A stretch of 64,000 bases of DNA from Planctomycetota bacterium (lineage in GTDB: Bacteria; Planctomycetota; Phycisphaerae; Phycisphaerales; Phycisphaeraceae), in NCBI GenBank assembly GCA_021413865.1, contig JAIOPN010000014.1:62001-126000 (forward strand), read 5' to 3'. Shown in pieces: positions 22,661-32,649 of this stretch. Position numbers and translations under genes: made by a program. Below the pieces are notes generated by a model. The model had not been told where the DNA came from. It worked only from the letters and a program-made list of their open reading frames with translations, and made no database searches. Within the stretch, counting starts at the first letter, position 1. The number at the start of each line of letters is the position of its first letter.

Positions 22661-25093
22661 TTAGTCGGCTATCGCCTTTCTCACAACCGCTTCGTTTCTG
22701 GCGGCATCCGCCTCTGCCTTGACCGCCTCGCCGATCGGTTTGACGTCCACCGTGACCTTGATGATCTTGCCGGTGAAGGCATTGTCGCGTTCCTTGTAAT
22801 CAGTCGTGACAGGCGTGGCGTCGTCCAGCCCCACGCCCGCCGTCTCGTCGGCTGAGAAGATCGCCATTTGCGTGCGCCCGATCCGGCCGCTGGCGACCTT
22901 CTCGTTGTTGACGAGGAGGGTGGCCGTGCCGCCCTTGCCGACCCCGCCGCCGTCATAGTCGAAGTTCAAGCGGATCGTGGCCTTGCCCGCCGCCAGTGGC
23001 CGCGGCGCGGAGACTTTGAATTCCTCGAGCCCGAGGAAGTTGTAGCAGTACGTCGGCTTGCCGTCCTTGAGATACAGGCTCCAGCCGCCGAAGCGGCCGC
23101 CCTGGGCGAGGATCACGCCATTCGCGCCACCCTCTGGGATCTCCACGTCCGCCGTGAGTGACAACGAGCGATTCTTGACGTTGATGAAGACGTTCTCGCT
23201 CATCGAGTCCATGCCCTCGGAGAGGGTGAGGGACGCTCGCTCGCCCATCAGGTCGGGTCGGCCCGCGGTCGCCGGGACGAGGCGTTCGAGCAGCCGATCA
23301 TCAATGGGTAGCACGCGATACTTGGTCGCATCCTTGATGAAGAGGCTCTGCAGTTCCTTGAGCTTCGCGGGATTGGTCGCGGCGAGATCGTTCGACAGGC
23401 TGAAGTCGGCGCGCGTGTCATAGAGTTCCCACACGTCGTCTTGCAGCTTTCGCCTGGACACCTTCTCCCACGGCGCGCGGTGGATCGTGCCGGCAAACCA
23501 GCCGTCGTGGTAGATGGCGCGGTTGCCGAATATCTCGAAATACTGGGTCGTGTGCGTGCTCGCAGCGCCGGGCTTGTCGAAGGAGTAAACCATGCTCACG
23601 CCCTCGATCGGCGTCTGGACGGTGCCGTTGACGCTCTTGGGTTCGGGCAGCTTTGCGGCTTCGAGCACGGTCGGGGCCACGTCGATGACATGGTGCCACT
23701 GCGAGCGCACCTGATTAGCCGCTTTGATGCCCTTGGGCCATGAGATGATCATGCCGTTGCGCGTGCCGCCGTAGTTGGAGGGTATCTGCTTGGTCCACAT
23801 GAACGGGGTATCGCCCGCCACTGCCCAACCGGCGGCCATGTGCGGATAGGTCGAAGGCCCGCCCCACTCGTCGTAGTGCCTGAGCATGTCCTGCACGGTC
23901 TCCTGCACGTTATTGAAAAAGGTCATCTCGCAGAACATGCCGAACATGCCGCCCTCGGCGCTTGTTCCGTTGTCCCCGAGGATGTAAATGATCAGCGTGT
24001 TGTCGAGCTGCCCGGTTTCGGCGATGGCGTCGAACAACCGACCAATCTCATGGTCGCAGTATTCCCCAAAGCCCGCGTACACCTCCATTTGGCGGGCGAA
24101 GAGCTTTTTCTCATCCGCCGTGAGCTGGTCCCAGTCCTTGATGTCCTTGGGCTTCGCGGCCAGTTTGGTGCCCGCCGGCACCACGCCCAGGGCGATCTGC
24201 CTGGCCAGGGTTTCTTCGCGCAGCTTGTCCCAACCGCCATCAAAGCGGCCCTTGTACTTCTCGATCCATTCCCTGGGCACGTGATGCGGAGCGTGGGTTG
24301 CGCCCGGCGCGAAATAGATGAAAAACGGCTTGTCCGGCGTCAGCGCCTTCTGGAACTTCATCCACGAGATCGCCTTGTCAGCCATGTCGGTCATGAAGTT
24401 GTAGCCCGGATAGTGCGGGGTGGGCACGCGGGTCATCCCGTCGTAGAGCGTCGGATTCCACTGGTCGGTCTCGCCGCCGAAGAACCCGTAGAACTTGTCG
24501 AAGCCCGAGCGCGACGGCCAACGGTCGGTCGGCCCGGAGACGCTCACTTCCCACGGTGCCGTCTCATGGTTCTTGCCGAAGAACGCGGTGCTGTACCCGT
24601 TCAGCCGCAGCATCTCCGCCAACGGCGCGACGTTGTTGGGACGCTGCCCGGTGTTTCCCGGAAATCCCGTTGCGGTTTCAGTGATGCTGCCCATGTTGTT
24701 CGTGTGGTGGTTGCGGCCCGAGAGCAGGGCCGTGCGCGTGGGCGAGCAGAGCGCCGTGGTGTGGAACTGGTTGTAACGCAGCCCCTTGCTGGCGAGGCGG
24801 TCGGCGCTCGGCATGCGCACCGGCCCGCCGAAGGCGCTGGGCATGCCAAAGCCCATGTCGTCCACGAGCACGATCAGCACGTTGGGTGCGCCGGCGGGGG
24901 CCTTGATGTCGAAGCGCGGCGGGACCTTGGCGTCACGGGCGTCGAGCACGGTGCTGTGCGGGTAATCCGGTTGGGCGATCGGGAGGATCGTGCGGTCCAT
25001 TGCCGCCGGCTCCGCGGCATAGGCACACAACCCGGTCAATGCGATCGCGAAGCACAAACCAATCCATACCATCAGACGTGTTGGGTTAGTCAT
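22661..25093 (-). CDS. Exported arylsulfatase (810 aa)
   Basis: A type I sulfatase with a signal peptide (residues 1-27, ending AYA-AEP). NVLIVLVDDMGFG supplies the metal-binding Asp pair (D78, D79); ALCSPTRTALLSGRNHH holds C-S-P-T-R with C116 as the formylglycine precursor; FFGKNHETAPWE, HAPHHVP and YILGDNGTSAEGG complete the active-site elements. About 250 C-terminal residues form an added beta-rich domain (VEIPEGGANGVILAQGGRFGGWSLYLKDGK), common in long periplasmic arylsulfatases. Its likely maturase (FGE) is encoded 4 kb away. The substrate is unknown. GAGG precedes the ATG at 25093. Confidence 0.95.
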   Translation of the reverse strand: MTNPTRLMVWIGLCFAIALTGLCAYAAEPAAMDRTILPIAQPDYPHSTVLDARDAKVPPRFDIKAPAGAPNVLIVLVDDMGFGMPSAFGGPVRMPSADRLASKGLRYNQFHTTALCSPTRTALLSGRNHHTNNMGSITETATGFPGNTGQRPNNVAPLAEMLRLNGYSTAFFGKNHETAPWEVSVSGPTDRWPSRSGFDKFYGFFGGETDQWNPTLYDGMTRVPTPHYPGYNFMTDMADKAISWMKFQKALTPDKPFFIYFAPGATHAPHHVPREWIEKYKGRFDGGWDKLREETLARQIALGVVPAGTKLAAKPKDIKDWDQLTADEKKLFARQMEVYAGFGEYCDHEIGRLFDAIAETGQLDNTLIIYILGDNGTSAEGGMFGMFCEMTFFNNVQETVQDMLRHYDEWGGPSTYPHMAAGWAVAGDTPFMWTKQIPSNYGGTRNGMIISWPKGIKAANQVRSQWHHVIDVAPTVLEAAKLPEPKSVNGTVQTPIEGVSMVYSFDKPGAASTHTTQYFEIFGNRAIYHDGWFAGTIHRAPWEKVSRRKLQDDVWELYDTRADFSLSNDLAATNPAKLKELQSLFIKDATKYRVLPIDDRLLERLVPATAGRPDLMGERASLTLSEGMDSMSENVFINVKNRSLSLTADVEIPEGGANGVILAQGGRFGGWSLYLKDGKPTYCYNFLGLEEFKVSAPRPLAAGKATIRLNFDYDGGGVGKGGTATLLVNNEKVASGRIGRTQMAIFSADETAGVGLDDATPVTTDYKERDNAFTGKIIKVTVDVKPIGEAVKAEADAARNEAVVRKAIAD

Positions 25094-25157: not shown

Positions 25158-25345
25158 TTACTTGCTCTCGGCCGCTAAGACGGTTTTCCAGTTGTTCTTC
25201 ATGTCCACCACCGTTCAGCCTTTGGCCACGGGCTCGTCCCACGCTTTGTCGAGCGTGCCGATGTGGGACTTGCGGTCATACCCCCACTCACGCTCGGTGT
25301 CGGTGTGATGAACGAGCAGGCAGAACCGCGCCCCGACGACCGCGG
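25158..25345 (-). pseudogene. Remnant of a HAD-phosphatase paralogue, with in-frame TGA
   Basis: Read on the minus strand, this segment encodes GARFCLLVHHTDTEREWGYDRKSH...LDKAWDEPVAKG, then TGA (25215-25217), then TVVDMKNNWKTVLAAESK and a TAA stop (25158-25160). It corresponds to residues about 274-328 of the neighbouring HAD protein, where the TGA replaces a TGG tryptophan codon (KGWTV). No HAD sequence continues upstream. The rest of the 25,094-25,424 gap shows nothing else I can support. Confidence 0.78.
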
Positions 25346-25424: not shown

Positions 25425-27047
25425 TTAGCGATTCAAATCCCATTCCTTGAGTTTCTTCGCCGCAGTGCCGAACGGGCCGAGCTGATAAACGGCCGCGCCC
25501 GCGGGCGAGAAGGTGAACGACTCGAACGGTTCGGCCAGCATCTTGTCGAGGTAGTCTTTGGGGGCGACGCCGGTGCTGACGTGCGGATTGAAGTTCTCGC
25601 CGGACATCTTGGGCACAAAGGTCGAGACGTACTGGATGATGGCCGCGTCGATCGCGGGGTCATCGTGCGGAGCGGTGAACGCGCCGATGGGGCCGGTCTC
25701 CACCATGAACGGCTTCGCGGCGGCGATGATGTCCGCCTGGAGTTTGAGAATCTGCGGGGTCGGCTTCGCACAGATGCCCGCAACACCCGTCGCGCCCGCC
25801 GGTGCGTAGTAATACTTGAAGGCCTCCAGCTTCATCGCGTTCACGTTGGTGGCCGCGAGCACCTTTTCCTCGGCGGCGTAGAGCTTGTCCAAATTCGCCG
25901 TGCGGACGAAGCACTGGAGCATCGTGATGTGCGGGCGGTGCGCCGCGTCCAACGCGAAACCCTTCGGGAAGACCGCCAGCAGGCGGGCGTTGCTGGCTTC
26001 GGCGTGCTTGAGCATCACGGCGTCCGGTTCGAGCAGGATGTCAATGGCCGTCACCGCGGGTGGCTCGGGAGCGAAGACGGCCTTCCAGTCGCTCTTCATG
26101 CTGGCGACGGTCCAGCCCTTGGCGGCGGCCTCGTCGAGCCCCTTGTCGAACTTGGCCAGATGGTCCGTGCGGTCGTAGGCGTATTCGCGGTCGGCGTCGT
26201 CGTGGTGGACGTACAGGCAGAAACGTGCGCCGCTGCCAGCGCCGGTGTATTGGAGCATCTGCAGGTCGCCGTCGGAATTGCCGAACGCCGCGATGGGGCG
26301 GCGGCCGATGTGCTGGTTGATGCCGACGGGCTTGCCGCCCTTGTCGTCATTGAAGTTCAATTCGGGCAGGCGCACGAGCACCGGCTGGCCGTCGCGCAGC
26401 TCAAACTTCGTCTTCACGCTGCTGCCGATGACCTGTTCCGGCGGGATGCCGTAGGCCTTCTCCGCCCACGGGCGCATGAACTCGATGCCGCCGCCCGAGA
26501 CGATGTAGGTCTTGAATCCGTTCGTGCGCAGGTAGGCGAGCACTTCGAGCATCGGCTGATACACCATCTCCGTGTAGAGCCTGCCGGTCTTGGGGTGCCT
26601 GGTGGTGGCGATCCACTCCTTCACGATCTGCTCGAATTCGACGGTGGTGTTGCCCGTGTGCGTGGCCATCATGAGTTCCACGATCGCGTGTTCACCGCCG
26701 CCGGCGGCGGTCTTCATGTCGCCCCTGAGGATCGAGGCGAACGGCTCCCTGGTCTGCCATTCGGGATGCTGCGGCGCGAGCGCCTTCACGCGGTCAATCG
26801 CAAAGTAGAGCTGAACCGGCATCGGCTTCTCGCACCAGAGCGTGCCGTCGTTGTCGAAGACGGCGATGCGCTCGGGGGCGGGCACGAAGTCGGGCGAGCC
26901 GGGTTTGGTCACCTTCTCGACGAAAGTGATGATGGATTGTCTGACCGGGCCGGCGTTCCAGGACGGCAGTGGGTCAGCGGCGAGCGCTGGCAGCACGAAA
27001 CTGAATACGCAAAGAACGGCGAATGCGGCGAATGCCCTGATTTTCAC
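25425..27047 (-). CDS. Exported HAD-superfamily phosphatase fused to a 2H phosphoesterase-like domain
   Basis: A 540-aa protein with a signal peptide (residues 1-23, ending ALA-AD), so periplasmic. Residues about 30-328 are a HAD hydrolase: FDNDGTL with nucleophile D65 and D67, YIVSGGG as motif II, and GNSDGD as motif IV. Residues about 332-540 resemble 2H phosphoesterases: PHITML (H373-x-T375) and PHVSTG (H489-x-S491) are the paired H-x-[ST] motifs of a two-lobed fold. HAD removes phosphates; 2H enzymes act on cyclic or 2',3'-phosphodiesters, so it may degrade a phosphorylated ester in two steps. The start codon is GTG. It lies between two arylsulfatases. Confidence 0.82.
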   Translation of the reverse strand: MKIRAFAAFAVLCVFSFVLPALAADPLPSWNAGPVRQSIITFVEKVTKPGSPDFVPAPERIAVFDNDGTLWCEKPMPVQLYFAIDRVKALAPQHPEWQTREPFASILRGDMKTAAGGGEHAIVELMMATHTGNTTVEFEQIVKEWIATTRHPKTGRLYTEMVYQPMLEVLAYLRTNGFKTYIVSGGGIEFMRPWAEKAYGIPPEQVIGSSVKTKFELRDGQPVLVRLPELNFNDDKGGKPVGINQHIGRRPIAAFGNSDGDLQMLQYTGAGSGARFCLYVHHDDADREYAYDRTDHLAKFDKGLDEAAAKGWTVASMKSDWKAVFAPEPPAVTAIDILLEPDAVMLKHAEASNARLLAVFPKGFALDAAHRPHITMLQCFVRTANLDKLYAAEEKVLAATNVNAMKLEAFKYYYAPAGATGVAGICAKPTPQILKLQADIIAAAKPFMVETGPIGAFTAPHDDPAIDAAIIQYVSTFVPKMSGENFNPHVSTGVAPKDYLDKMLAEPFESFTFSPAGAAVYQLGPFGTAAKKLKEWDLNR

Positions 27048-27190: not shown

Positions 27191-28714
27191 TCACTCCGTC
27201 CAACTGCCCACCTTCTGGCTCGGCGGGTATTCCTTGAACGTGGCCATGAACTTCCCGATGAGTTCCTGCACGGGCACCATGATGAACATGTGGTCCACCC
27301 GCCAGCGCCAGTAATCGGCGGAATGGTCGGCCTCCTCGAAGGGATCCGAGCGGAGGTTGTAGAGTTTGGGAATACTCAGCTTCGAATACTCCTCCTGCCA
27401 GGCTTCAAGGCCGTGGGCGCGCTGTTCCAGAAAGGTGATCTTGTATTGGTTGTAACGGACCGCGGCCAGGTCGCCCCGGTCGTTGAAGTAGAAGAACTCG
27501 TGGCGCGGGCTGGGCGTCTTGCCGGCGAGGGCGTCGGTGAGGTCGTAGCCGTCGAGATGGACCTTGAAAGTCTTGTCGCCGACTTTCATGCCGGTGAGCA
27601 GCTTGGTCTTCACGTCCGGATCGCCCGCGGCGGCCATGAGCGTGGGCAGCATGTCTTCATGGGAGAAGATGTCGTTGAGCACCGTGCCGGGCTTGATGAC
27701 GCCGGGCCAGCTAATCAGGCAAGGGACGCGGAATCCGCCTTCCCATTGGGTGACTTTCTCGGCGCGAAAGGGTGAGGCGCCGCCGTCGGGCCACATGCCT
27801 TTTTCCGCGCCGTTGTCGGTGGAATACATGACGATGGTGTTGTCATCGAGGCCGAGCTCCTTGAGCTTGGCGAGGAGCTGGCCGACGTGGCCGTCGTGCT
27901 CGACCATGCCGTCGGGATAGACGCCGAGGCCGGTCTTGCCCTCGCTTTCCTTCTTGAGGTGCGTCCAGATGTGCATGCGGGTGGCGTTCCACCAGAGGAA
28001 GAACGGTTTGCCGTCCTCCTTGCGCTTTTGCATGTAGTCCATCGAGAGCTTGGTGAACTCCTCGTCCACGGTCTCCATACGCTTGATGGTGAGCGGGCCG
28101 GTGTCCTCGATCTTCTGGGTTCCGTCCGGGTTGGCGAACGAGTGGATCACGCCGCGCGGGGCGAACTTTTTGATCATCGCCGGATCCTTGAAGTAGTCGG
28201 GATGCTCGGGTTCCTGGCTGGCGTTGAGGTGATAAAGCGGGCCGTAGAACTCGTCGAAGCCGTGTGCGGTGGGCAGCGTATCGTCGGCATCGCCGAGATG
28301 GTTCTTGCCGAACTGTGCGGTCGCGTAGCCCCGCGCCTTGAGCAACTGGGCGAGGGTGACGTCGCGCGCCTGCAAGCCTTCCTTCGCGCCGGGCAGGCCG
28401 ACCTTGAGGTTGCCGGTGCGGAGGCCGACCTGGCCCGTGATGAAGGCGGAACGTCCGGCGGTGCAACTCTGTTGACCATACCAGTCGGTGAAGATCGCGC
28501 CGTTTTTGGCGATGCTGTCGATGTTCGGCGTCTTGTAGCCCATCATGCCCATGTTGTAGGCGCTGATGTTCCAGATGCCGATGTCGTCACCCCAGATGAT
28601 CAGGATGTTGGGCTTCTTCGCGTCAGCCGCCCGCGCCGCGGGCACGAGGAACGGGGCTCCGATCAATGCCAACCCGAGGGTCAGCGCCCTAAGAAATGGA
28701 CTGATTCTTCTCAT
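27191..28714 (-). CDS. Exported arylsulfatase with C-x-A-x-R motif (507 aa)
   Basis: A 507-aa type I sulfatase with a signal peptide (about 1-29, ending ARA-AD) and a strong AAAGGAG ribosome site. NILIIWGDDIG gives the metal-binding Asp pair; QQSCTAGRSAFITGQ places C84 in C-T-A-G-R, an alanine variant of the canonical C-x-P-x-R motif that occurs in one group of bacterial arylsulfatases. FGKNHLGD, MYSTDNGAEKGMWPDGG and the N/K-rich central region complete the fold. It follows the FGE gene by 36 bp, which indicates co-transcription with its own activator. Confidence 0.95.
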   Translation of the reverse strand: MRRISPFLRALTLGLALIGAPFLVPAARAADAKKPNILIIWGDDIGIWNISAYNMGMMGYKTPNIDSIAKNGAIFTDWYGQQSCTAGRSAFITGQVGLRTGNLKVGLPGAKEGLQARDVTLAQLLKARGYATAQFGKNHLGDADDTLPTAHGFDEFYGPLYHLNASQEPEHPDYFKDPAMIKKFAPRGVIHSFANPDGTQKIEDTGPLTIKRMETVDEEFTKLSMDYMQKRKEDGKPFFLWWNATRMHIWTHLKKESEGKTGLGVYPDGMVEHDGHVGQLLAKLKELGLDDNTIVMYSTDNGAEKGMWPDGGASPFRAEKVTQWEGGFRVPCLISWPGVIKPGTVLNDIFSHEDMLPTLMAAAGDPDVKTKLLTGMKVGDKTFKVHLDGYDLTDALAGKTPSPRHEFFYFNDRGDLAAVRYNQYKITFLEQRAHGLEAWQEEYSKLSIPKLYNLRSDPFEEADHSADYWRWRVDHMFIMVPVQELIGKFMATFKEYPPSQKVGSWTE

Positions 28715-28750: not shown

Positions 28751-29920
28751 CTACTTCGACGGATCGGGTACCCGATCCGTCGCTGTCGCCGGCTTCACAC
28801 AGCGGAAGCCGACGTGGTTGCTGCCGGTGCTGATCTCGCCCTTGCCGCGCGTGCCGACCATGTAGCGGGTGCAGTACTGGTCGGTGCAGAGAAATGAGCC
28901 GCCGCGCTGCACGCGTTTCTTCTCGTTGGGCTCGGCGGGGTCGTAGGGGGAGTTGGGGCCTTGCGGGTTGCGGGTGATCTTGCCGGCGAGCATCTGCCGG
29001 GTGTAGGTGTCAACGCGGTACCAGTCGCTGCACCACTCCCAGACGTTGCCGGCCACGTCGTAGAGGCCGTAGGCGTTGGGCGGGAACTGGGCGACCGGCG
29101 CGACGCCGATAAAGCCATCCTCGCCGGTGTCCTTCACCGGGAACGTGCCCTGGAACGTGTTGGCCATGAACTTGCCGTTGGGCTTGAACTCATCGCCCCA
29201 GGCGAAAGTCTTCCCCGCCGCGCCGCCCCGCGCGGCGAACTCGAACTCCGCCTCGGTCGGCAGCCGCTTGCCCGCCCACTTCGCGTAGGCCGCCGCGTCG
29301 TCGTAGGCGATGTGCACAACCGGGTATTTCTCTTTGCCCTTGAGGTCGCTCTCCGGGCCTTCGGGGTGACGCCAGTTCGCGCCTCTCTGGTACCGCCACC
29401 ACTGGTAATGATTGTCGAGCGGCACCGGGCCGGGCGTGGGCGTGAAGACCGTCGAACCGGCGACGAGGTTTTCCGGCGGGGCGCCGGGGAAGTCCTCCGC
29501 CCTGGGCGTCTGCTCGGCGATGGTGACGTAGCCGGTCGCCTTCACGAACTTCTCGAACTGCTCGTTGGTGACCTCGGTCTTGTCCATCCAGTAGCCGTCC
29601 ACATAGACGCGGTGGATCGGCTGTGCGTCGGGCATCGAGCCGTGCATGTCGCAGAGCGCGGCGTCGGCGTCGAGCGAGCCCATGGAGAACTCGCCGCCGG
29701 GAATCCAGACCATGCCCTCGACCGCAGGCGTTGGCGCGGGCGCGGCATTGGGGATCGTGGGGCCGAATGCGTTAGGTTTCGTTGCCGCGTCGGTCTTCGC
29801 CTGAGGCGCGGCGCGGCCGGAATTGCTCTCCTGAGCCCAGCTACTGGTTGAGATGATCCCGCCGACCGCGATGATGAGGCTGACTGCCCTAAATGTTACA
29901 AGATGTGTCGCGCTCGTCAT
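28751..29920 (-). CDS. Exported formylglycine-generating enzyme (sulfatase maturase)
   Basis: A 389-aa copper-dependent FGE/SUMF1-family oxidase that converts the motif cysteine of sulfatases to formylglycine using O2. The N-terminus has a signal peptide (VSLIIAVGGIISTSSWAQ), so it should act in the periplasm. Family marks: MVWIPGGEFSMGS, DKTEVTNEQFEKFV, KRLPTEAEFEFAARGG, NVWEWCSDWY and RGGSFLCTDQYCTRY. The last has the two active-site cysteines (about C346 and C351) with the same five-residue spacing as human FGE C336/C341. It sits in the same strand run as two arylsulfatases. The ATG at 29920 was preferred over one 33 bp upstream because the signal sequence follows directly. Confidence 0.95.
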   Translation of the reverse strand: MTSATHLVTFRAVSLIIAVGGIISTSSWAQESNSGRAAPQAKTDAATKPNAFGPTIPNAAPAPTPAVEGMVWIPGGEFSMGSLDADAALCDMHGSMPDAQPIHRVYVDGYWMDKTEVTNEQFEKFVKATGYVTIAEQTPRAEDFPGAPPENLVAGSTVFTPTPGPVPLDNHYQWWRYQRGANWRHPEGPESDLKGKEKYPVVHIAYDDAAAYAKWAGKRLPTEAEFEFAARGGAAGKTFAWGDEFKPNGKFMANTFQGTFPVKDTGEDGFIGVAPVAQFPPNAYGLYDVAGNVWEWCSDWYRVDTYTRQMLAGKITRNPQGPNSPYDPAEPNEKKRVQRGGSFLCTDQYCTRYMVGTRGKGEISTGSNHVGFRCVKPATATDRVPDPSK

Positions 29921-30220
29921 GGAGTGCCGCCTCGTTGCTCCGCCGCCGGTCAAATGACCGTGAGGCAGAGGCTAAGTGACCCCGAAATTCCCGACAATGA
30001 GGAATCCCACGCAGGTAATTCTTCTTATGAGAGCATGAAGTGGTGCAACTCGAGTGCGTCTTGGCACCGGTAGCGGGTTCCATTTTCAAAGCGCCGCGAG
30101 ACGTTCGCGGGCGGAATGGCATTCGATGATCAGGCCGGCTCTTTCTCTGACAACCGATGGTACACCCCGCGTGCGGTATTTGGAAGTTGTTTTGTGCTCC
30201 ACGCACCGCGATCCGGGGCG
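29921..30220. other. Intergenic region upstream of the FGE gene
   Basis: These 300 bp lie between the repeat lipoprotein stop and the FGE start, both on the minus strand. A 14-bp symmetrical site CGGTCAAATGACCG (29947-29960) lies 27 bp before the FGE start and could be an operator, but I cannot tie it to a regulator. I see no other gene. Confidence 0.3.
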
Positions 30221-31042
30221 CTAGTTCGCGCCGGGCGCACGTTGAGACAGCATCGCAGCCAATGTCCTGTTGATGCGAGAGAGCGTGACGAGCAGGTAAA
30301 CCACCGCGAAGACCAGGAGGATGACGACACCACCCAGCGCGGCGATCACCAGCTTGCCGCCGGTGGATTGCGGCGACATGCCCTCCATGAGCCTGTTCAG
30401 CGCCGCGAGCTGCTTCTGGTTTTCGTCGATGGCGGCGGTGCTCGCGACGACCCCACGCTCGTTCGCGGCGACCGCGGCCGTGCTCTTGTCCACGGCCTGC
30501 TGGTTGCGCGCGACCGATTCGGCGGAGGCGAGCACGCCTTTCTCGTTGGTGGCGACGGCCTGAGTGCTCTTGCGGACGCCGGCCTCGTTCTGAGCGACCG
30601 CGTCGGTGCTCGCGCGAACGCTCTTCTCATTCGCACCGATGGCCGCCGTGCTCGCGTTCACGCCTCTGGTGTTGCCGTCGATCGCCTCCATGCTTTTGCG
30701 GACACCGGTCTCGTTTTGAGCCACCGCGTCGGTGCTGGCACGCACGCCCTTCTCATTGCCCGCGATCGCTTCGGTGCTACCGCGCACGGTTTTCTCGTTC
30801 GCATCGATGGCGGAGGTGCTGCGGGCGACGGCCTCCCTGTTGGCGTTGATCGCCTCCGTCGATTCGCCGATCGCCTTGCCGTTGGCGCGGATCGCCTCGG
30901 TGCTCGCGCCGATGGCGGCCTCGTTCTCCTTGACGAGCTTGGCCATCCGGCCCAGGTCTTCGCAGCCGGTCAGGCAGAGGGCGCACAAGAACAGCGTGGC
31001 CATGAGGGGCGCGGCGGGCTTGCGAAACAGGTTGATGCTCAT
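30221..31042 (-). CDS. Lipoprotein with thirteen 14-residue coiled-coil repeats and a C-terminal transmembrane helix
   Basis: A 273-aa predicted envelope protein. A signal peptide ends in the lipobox LTGC (lipidated C27). Residues 35-216 are thirteen consecutive 14-residue repeats of consensus x-A-[IV]-x-x-N-x-x-x-V-x-x-S-T, two heptads each, a pattern expected to form a long parallel coiled coil. Residues about 230-255 are a strong transmembrane helix (KLVIAALGGVVILLVFAVVYLLV). If the lipid sits in the outer membrane and the helix in the inner membrane, the coil (about 27 nm at 1.5 Å per residue) could span the periplasm; both ends in the inner membrane is the alternative. I know no named family. 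A divergent porin gene lies 225 bp away. Confidence 0.82.
   Translation of the reverse strand: MSINLFRKPAAPLMATLFLCALCLTGCEDLGRMAKLVKENEAAIGASTEAIRANGKAIGESTEAINANREAVARSTSAIDANEKTVRGSTEAIAGNEKGVRASTDAVAQNETGVRKSMEAIDGNTRGVNASTAAIGANEKSVRASTDAVAQNEAGVRKSTQAVATNEKGVLASAESVARNQQAVDKSTAAVAANERGVVASTAAIDENQKQLAALNRLMEGMSPQSTGGKLVIAALGGVVILLVFAVVYLLVTLSRINRTLAAMLSQRAPGAN
30395..30940 (-). repeat. Thirteen 42-bp coding repeats
   Basis: In-register 42-bp units encode the 14-residue coiled-coil repeats of the lipoprotein. DNA identity between units is partial (some pairs, such as the DAVAQNE units, are very close), so the array is old enough to have diverged but shows local duplication. Confidence 0.85.
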
Positions 31043-31266
31043 GGAAACGCTCCCGCGTGCTCTGTTGCGTGGCAAATGAAAGAACCGATGTTTCACCAGA
31101 CCCGCCGATGTACAGGTCAATCCTTGTTGTGTAAAACCCGTTTGTGCTCGCCGCGGCAGCCGAGATGCGCGACCATGATATAGTGGAAAACAACAGAGCC
31201 GTTAGTGTTTGTTGTAAGCACGCCGTGTCAATTTGTGTTGAACGCATGAAAAGGAAACCACCCGCG

Positions 31267-32649
31267 ATGAAATCATCTCTCCGCACGCACTTGCTGTTCA
31301 CTTCCATCGTGGCCGTTTCGCTGGTGCCGCACCACGCCGTATCGATCGCCGCCGAGCCCGAGACGAAGGCTCCGGTCAGCGCGGAGGCCCCGGCCGAGGC
31401 CAAGGGCATCCTCCCGGTGCCCGACTACAGCGGTGATCTGTTCGAGCGGTCCCACCTCACCGGCGACTGGGGCGGCACACGCACCGACCTGGCGAACAAG
31501 GGCATCCAGTTCCAGGTGGACTGGACGCAGCACCTGCAATCCGTGGTCGATGGCGGCGCCGACACCGCGACGCAGTACGGCGGGAACCTGGATTACATGC
31601 TGAACCTCGACCTCTACCGCATGGGGTTGCTGCCCGGCGCGCTGATCAAGGTCCGCGCCGAGACGCGCTACGGCGAATTTGCCAATGACAAATCGGGCTC
31701 GATCATCCCCGTTAATATGGACGGTGCCGTCCCGATCAACGACAGCAACGGGGCGGCCGATGTGCCCATCGCTCTGACCGACCTGGCCTACTACCAGTTC
31801 CTCTCCGAAAAGTTCGGCGTCTTCCTGGGCAAGATCGACACGCTCAACGGCGACCCGAATCCCTTCGCCTCCGGCCGCGGCGTCTCGCAGTTCATGAACG
31901 CCAATTACGTCATCCCCGTCCAAACCCTGCTGATGGTGCCCTACAGCACGCTCGCCGCCGGCTTCGTAGCCATGCCCACGCCCAACATCACGCTCACCAG
32001 CGCCATGATGAACACCGCCGACTCCTCGACGACCTCGGGCTTCGGCGAGTTCGGTAACGGCTGGACATCGGGCTCGGAGGCCGACATCCAATACCGCCTC
32101 GGCAAGCTCCCCGGCGGCATGAACTTCGGGTTCGTCTACGCGGCGGACCGCGATTACACCGAGTTCGGCGGCCGATTTACCTTTCAGCGCGGCGAGGGCC
32201 TCGTCGTGCCGACCCAGGACAACACGTGGGCGGCGTACTGGAGCGGCTGGCAGTATTTCTACACCCCCGAAGACGTCAAGGGCCCGGTGAAAATGGCCAA
32301 TGGCGCACCGGACCGTCAGGGCGTGGGCATCTTCTGGCGATTCGGTGAAGCGGACCACGACACCAACCCCATCCGCTGGACGCTCAGCGGCGGCGTCGGC
32401 GGCAAGGGCCTCGTCCCCGGCCGGCCCAACGACCTCTGGGGTGTGGGCTACAGCTATGCGAGCCTGGGGACGTCGCGCCTCACCTCCGCCCTGGCCGTGG
32501 ACGACAACTCCCAGGGCTTCGAGGGTTTCTATAACATTGCTCTGACCCCCGCGATGCACCTCACCTTCGACCTGCAGGTCGTCGATCCACCGTTTCCCGA
32601 TCGTGACACCGCGGTCGTCCTGGGCGGCAGGCTGCAGCTCTCGTTTTGA
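31267..32649 (+). CDS. OprB-family carbohydrate-selective porin
   Basis: A 460-aa outer-membrane porin. The ATG at 31267 with AAGGAAA upstream opens a signal peptide (about 1-28, ending SIA-AEP); an in-frame ATG at 31246 is a less likely start. After a short Ala/Pro-rich stretch, HLTGDWGGTRTDLANKGIQFQVDWTQHLQ is the OprB N-terminal signature, and the rest is alternating amphipathic strands ending LGGRLQLSF with the terminal aromatic residue typical of beta-barrels. OprB porins admit sugars. Here it stands beside exported sulfatases, so uptake of desulfated sugars is a plausible inference. It is divergent from the coiled-coil lipoprotein. Confidence 0.93.
   Translation: MKSSLRTHLLFTSIVAVSLVPHHAVSIAAEPETKAPVSAEAPAEAKGILPVPDYSGDLFERSHLTGDWGGTRTDLANKGIQFQVDWTQHLQSVVDGGADTATQYGGNLDYMLNLDLYRMGLLPGALIKVRAETRYGEFANDKSGSIIPVNMDGAVPINDSNGAADVPIALTDLAYYQFLSEKFGVFLGKIDTLNGDPNPFASGRGVSQFMNANYVIPVQTLLMVPYSTLAAGFVAMPTPNITLTSAMMNTADSSTTSGFGEFGNGWTSGSEADIQYRLGKLPGGMNFGFVYAADRDYTEFGGRFTFQRGEGLVVPTQDNTWAAYWSGWQYFYTPEDVKGPVKMANGAPDRQGVGIFWRFGEADHDTNPIRWTLSGGVGGKGLVPGRPNDLWGVGYSYASLGTSRLTSALAVDDNSQGFEGFYNIALTPAMHLTFDLQVVDPPFPDRDTAVVLGGRLQLSF

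Follow-up and report, generated by a model that had tools for sequence, protein, structure and literature searches.

Does a single polypeptide that seems to join a HAD phosphatase to a 2H phosphoesterase-like domain really contain both enzymes and, if so, what would they do together? The question arises from a gene in a 64,000-nucleotide stretch of a Planctomycetota bacterium contig, referred to below as the window. Both folds are supported, the 2H fold by structure prediction and the HAD fold by close homology to a crystal structure. The protein is probably an exported bifunctional hydrolase that would first open a phosphodiester, probably a cyclic one, and then split off the phosphate. We infer the activity, the order of the two steps, the location, and a role in scavenging.

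The fusion gene and its two halves

The gene and its parts are listed here by window coordinates.

25425..27047, minus strand: HAD-2H fusion gene, 540 aa, GTG start; intact homologues exist
26976..27047, minus strand: signal peptide, residues 1-24, with a hydrophobic core ending in ALA-A
26064..26975, minus strand: HAD phosphatase domain, residues 25-328 (match to PDB entry 4ovy extends to ~330, E 5.5e-124; PF12710, 4.5e-13)
26847..26855, minus strand: HAD motif I, D65-N-D67, predicted nucleophile and general acid/base
26265..26282, minus strand: HAD motif IV, G256-N-S-x-G-D261, invariant except residue 259
25428..26051, minus strand: 2H phosphoesterase domain, residues 333-540 (PF13563, confident model, fold matches)
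25923..25931, minus strand: first 2H motif, H373-I-T375, H and T invariant
25575..25583, minus strand: second 2H motif, H489-V-S491, H invariant, third position S or T
25161..25343, minus strand: decayed tail of a second HAD copy, matching residues 270-330 at 54% identity, with an in-frame stop

The open reading frame lies at the coordinates first described. The polypeptide had also been described as exported, in agreement with its N-terminus, MKIRAFAAFAVLCVFSFVLPALA, which resembles a Sec signal peptide as judged from the letters, and with the alignment to the homologous crystal construct 4ovy, which starts at residue 25. On this reading of the signal peptide, the fusion protein would be located outside the cytoplasm. 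A Pfam scan of the protein matched only HAD and 2H families. A 635-aa open reading frame on the plus strand overlaps the gene and appears to be a shadow ORF of the kind that GC-rich sequence produces. The decayed HAD tail sits just downstream of the fusion, between it and the next sulfatase gene; with its in-frame stop, it is a sign that two HAD copies once stood at this locus.

The N-terminal half is a member of the HAD superfamily of the HAD-IB-like kind, with predicted phosphatase activity. It matches PF12710 above the cut-off, and the match to TIGR01488 (HAD-IB) lies below that model's own cut-off. Motif I reads D65-N-D67-G-T. In the HAD alignment, D65, D67, and D261 are invariant and S184 is nearly so, in line with the DxD motif I, S/T motif II, and acidic motif IV of the superfamily. 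Motif IV has Asn (N257) in place of its first acidic residue throughout the family. Of the HAD motifs proposed in the preliminary description, D65/D67 stands unchanged, whereas GNSDGD needs amendment: N257, S258, G260, and D261 are invariant, but D259 varies, so that the motif is G-N-S-x-G-D.

The case for the C-terminal half began with two H-x-[ST] motifs at residues 373 and 489. They are found exactly there, and both are kept in all aligned fusions and in the other fully covered members except L104/L124, a lipoprotein-like solo 2H relative that retains the first motif and has lost the second histidine. The motif pair alone is weak evidence, since two or more H-x-[ST] motifs also occur in 5.7% of shuffled C-terminal halves. 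The motifs gain significance from the profile match, the confident model with its fold matches, and their invariance across phyla. PF13563 scored 27.5 bits on the 2H domain alone (cut-off, 27) and 23.4 bits, below the cut-off, on the whole protein; it was matched by 29 of 29 family members, and LigT_PEase was matched by 12. A model of the 2H domain alone, built from 21 relatives, had a mean pLDDT of 93 and a pTM of 0.89. When this model was compared with the PDB by Foldseek, all 33 matches at E<=1e-3 were of the 2H fold, among them plant cyclic phosphodiesterase (CPDase), Usb1, YjcG, LigT, and rotavirus VP3. Structural comparison across the whole domain (162-165 aligned residues) gave Z scores of 15.6 to Bacillus subtilis YjcG and 15.1 to plant CPDase. 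Structure prediction with a fold search had been proposed as the test that could refute the 2H assignment, and its outcome, together with the profile match and conservation, rules out a coincidental occurrence of the motifs. By motifs, fold, and profile, the C-terminal half is a member of the 2H phosphoesterase superfamily, with predicted phosphodiesterase activity. A profile search with the 2H alignment against PDB sequences returned no credible relatives. The full-length model had a pLDDT of 68, with low values in the HAD part, and is too poor to show how the two active sites lie with respect to each other.

Distribution and repeated pairing with phosphatases

One scan of species-level genomes yielded about 25 similar fusions from Planctomycetota, Pseudomonadota, Acidobacteriota, Verrucomicrobiota, and other phyla; few further copies came from samples taken at the level of phylum, genus, and family. 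Fusions in the same order were 66-80% identical and included sequences from Planctomycetota, Pseudomonas, Nitrosomonas, Thiocystis, Rhodoblastus, Acidobacteriota, and Verrucomicrobiota (organism names for metagenome bins follow the deposited records and may be incorrect). In our surveys, the 2H family was rare and unevenly distributed, with 1 of 392, 2 of 398, 6 of 299, and 2 of 298 genomes carrying it. High identity across phyla combined with patchy presence points to horizontal transfer, and the mosaic trees likewise suggest that the unit may have moved between lineages. In Pseudomonas reinekei (L030:4713-6206), the start of a sulfatase gene of the SulfA type is in frame with the remainder of HAD-2H, apparently via a deletion.

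The two domains occur together in several arrangements. Two planctomycete loci, L048 and L051, encode the reverse-order fusion, 2H-HAD. The 2H domains of the two are sister sequences (71% identity), and a grouping of their HAD domains was rejected (p-AU 0.023), which makes an exchange of the HAD part, or two separate joining events, probable. HAD and 2H are separate adjacent genes, in that order, in Rhodococcus (L093) and Streptomyces (L091), and are separated by 2 kb at L090. A Pseudomonas-genus genome (L120) has SulfA, HAD, and 2H as three genes with separate signal peptides, and the unfused order at L128 is SulfA-2H-HAD. In Ensifer (L089/L126), a single open frame of ~503 aa, with two sulfatases nearby, fuses 2H to a class A PhoC-like acid phosphatase of the PAP2 fold (PhoC model, 1.6e-46). 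Solo 2H genes were found at L121, L122, L123, L125, and L127, and those of L122 and L127 lie near sulfatase and FGE genes. With four states (HAD-2H, 2H-HAD, PAP2-2H, and unfused), the 2H tree requires at least five changes; a first count of 13 had been inflated by finely split labels.

What most strongly suggests a diesterase step followed by a phosphatase step is that 2H has been joined to two non-homologous phosphatases, and the best evidence that the first step may feed the second is the recurrence of the pairing. The stepwise breakdown of a phosphodiester proposed in the preliminary description thus gains strength, as a reading of gene arrangements, from both fusion orders, the adjacent unfused genes, and the fusion to an unrelated acid phosphatase. 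Two observations count against this reading: most of the HAD relatives in our sample (54) have no neighboring 2H, so that the HAD family also has a role independent of it, and 2H genes likewise occur alone.

The sixth residue after the Trp of motif I is Pro in 29 of the 31 2H-linked HADs of the tree set and Tyr in 51 of the 54 without 2H. We considered this residue as a sign of HAD-2H co-specificity and rejected it: it changes twice on the tree, independent pairs are not significant, and L048 is the sole independent case, which makes it mainly a clade marker. Two fusions, L031 and L033, carry truncated 2H parts, and the HAD of L031 is of the Tyr type otherwise seen without 2H.

Proposed reaction and comparison with known enzymes

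In the proposed mechanism, the 2H domain would open a phosphodiester, probably a cyclic one, to give a phosphomonoester. The HAD domain would then hydrolyze this monoester with Asp65 as nucleophile and with Mg2+, so that phosphate and the dephosphorylated remainder are set free. Characterized 2H enzymes hydrolyze 2',3'-cyclic phosphates among other substrates (PMC5283653). Our best single guess for the substrate, a tentative one made by analogy with periplasmic CpdB, is a 2',3'-cyclic nucleotide; another cyclic, carbohydrate, or lipid phosphodiester has about an even chance. The link to sulfatases described below suggests that the substrate would not be a plain nucleotide. Because the 2H domain is predicted to be exported and is tied physically to phosphatases of two unrelated folds, the question narrows to a diester whose monoester is dephosphorylated outside the cytoplasm, and the substrate becomes directly searchable.

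In CpdB, opening of the 2',3'-cyclic phosphodiester and dephosphorylation occur together in the periplasm (PMC4905662). Both CpdB and the fusion protein are exported, and both combine diester opening with phosphate removal, as predicted in the case of HAD-2H. However, CpdB consists of metallophosphoesterase and 5_nucleotid_C domains and has neither HAD nor 2H, whereas the fusion protein has neither CpdB domain. Most likely, the fusion would work as CpdB does with unrelated folds, which, if true, makes it a second, unrelated solution to the same pair of reactions. The window's genome, a draft assembly, gave no match to the CpdB family model TIGR01390, which fits this reading and proves nothing.

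LigT, YjcG, and plant CPDase share with the C-terminal half the fold and two H-x-[ST] motifs, but they are single-domain proteins of ~170-185 residues, only ~10-18% identical, without a fused phosphatase. STS-1/STS-2 (UBASH3) also combine a 2H phosphodiesterase and a phosphatase domain in one polypeptide (PMC10218301); unlike the fusion, they are animal, intracellular proteins whose phosphatase is a histidine phosphatase (PGM fold), with additional UBA and SH3 domains. The structure 4ovy, deposited as a haloacid dehalogenase domain protein hydrolase, is a close relative of the HAD half over residues 25-330, but its 310-aa chain lacks a 2H domain; our literature search found no paper naming it. 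The preliminary description knew of no named enzyme with this layout, and our search of open-access papers likewise found neither a HAD-2H enzyme nor a description of the layout. The fusion is a new architecture of known superfamilies and not a new kind of system.

Sulfatase genes and other readings of the locus

The fusion gene is flanked by the following genes.

28751..29953, minus strand: FGE/SUMF1-type sulfatase-modifying protein (PF03781, 2.2e-79), probably the first gene of the unit
27191..28714, minus strand: SulfA, sulfatase upstream of the fusion (PF00884, 2.1e-47; Cys-T-A-G-R signature)
22661..25093, minus strand: SulfB, sulfatase downstream of the fusion (PF00884, 8e-62; C-S-P-T-R signature; matches to PDB arylsulfatases)
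31144-32649, strand opposite to the fusion: OprB-type porin

The genes for the FGE-like protein, SulfA, HAD-2H, and SulfB are co-oriented on the minus strand. The fusion had been placed next to sulfatases and a porin; the sulfatases, joined by the FGE-like gene, do share its orientation, but the porin gene is on the opposite strand and hence outside its transcription unit. Where the flanking sequence was long enough, 22 of 28 fused loci and 24 of 41 HAD-only loci had a SulfA-type gene on the same strand, no more than 1.5 kb upstream. As SulfA also precedes HAD genes without 2H, the association with sulfatases is in the first place a feature of the HAD family, and one that the fusion shares. 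With sulfatase genes and a gene for a formylglycine-generating-type protein alongside HAD-2H, the module would probably release sulfate and phosphate from esters in organic matter outside the cell, as a source of P, S, or carbon. If true, this would link the scavenging of organic phosphorus and organic sulfur genetically. A wider proposal, which we hold only tentatively, is a horizontally mobile system of modules outside the cytoplasm: formylglycine sulfatases would act together with a 2H phosphodiesterase, itself coupled to interchangeable phosphatases (HAD or PAP2), to degrade natural compounds bearing both sulfate esters and phosphodiesters, the HAD being specialized for the 2H product.

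The same context bears on a different view of the fusion, in which the domains attack separate bonds of a single sulfated and phosphorylated polymer or lipid headgroup (e.g., a phosphodiester-linked exopolysaccharide) rather than in consecutive steps on one phosphate, and are fused only to be kept together. The high frequency of upstream SulfA genes, as opposed to only 21 PF00884 matches in the 4.4-Mb genome of the window, favors this view, as do the FGE-like gene and the second sulfatase in the unit. Nevertheless, a phosphatase that acts on the 2H product would account for the recurrence of 2H with two unrelated phosphatases (HAD and PAP2/PhoC), and we regard action on different bonds as unlikely.

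Successive action on one phosphate also presupposes a catalytic 2H domain. The fold matches include 2H proteins with binding roles (AKAP18 and mitoribosomal proteins), and the lost second motif of L104/L124 and the truncated domains of L031 and L033 would suit a 2H domain that binds substrate for the HAD phosphatase or regulates it without any catalysis of its own; since all other members with full coverage of the domain keep both motifs, such a role is improbable. It is very doubtful, too, that 2H is a horizontally spread passenger of a sulfatase-HAD unit with no functional coupling. The patchy spread across phyla and the mosaic trees would agree with a passenger, but the pairings recur in differing arrangements, and both sets of catalytic motifs have been maintained.

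Genes for DUF1254-type proteins adjoin HAD genes in several phyla (L064, L072, L045, L068, and L093). Near the unit in the window, the minus strand at 30221-31120 encodes a protein of 299 aa that is rich in short repeats (IGASTEAI / ANEKSVRAST-like).
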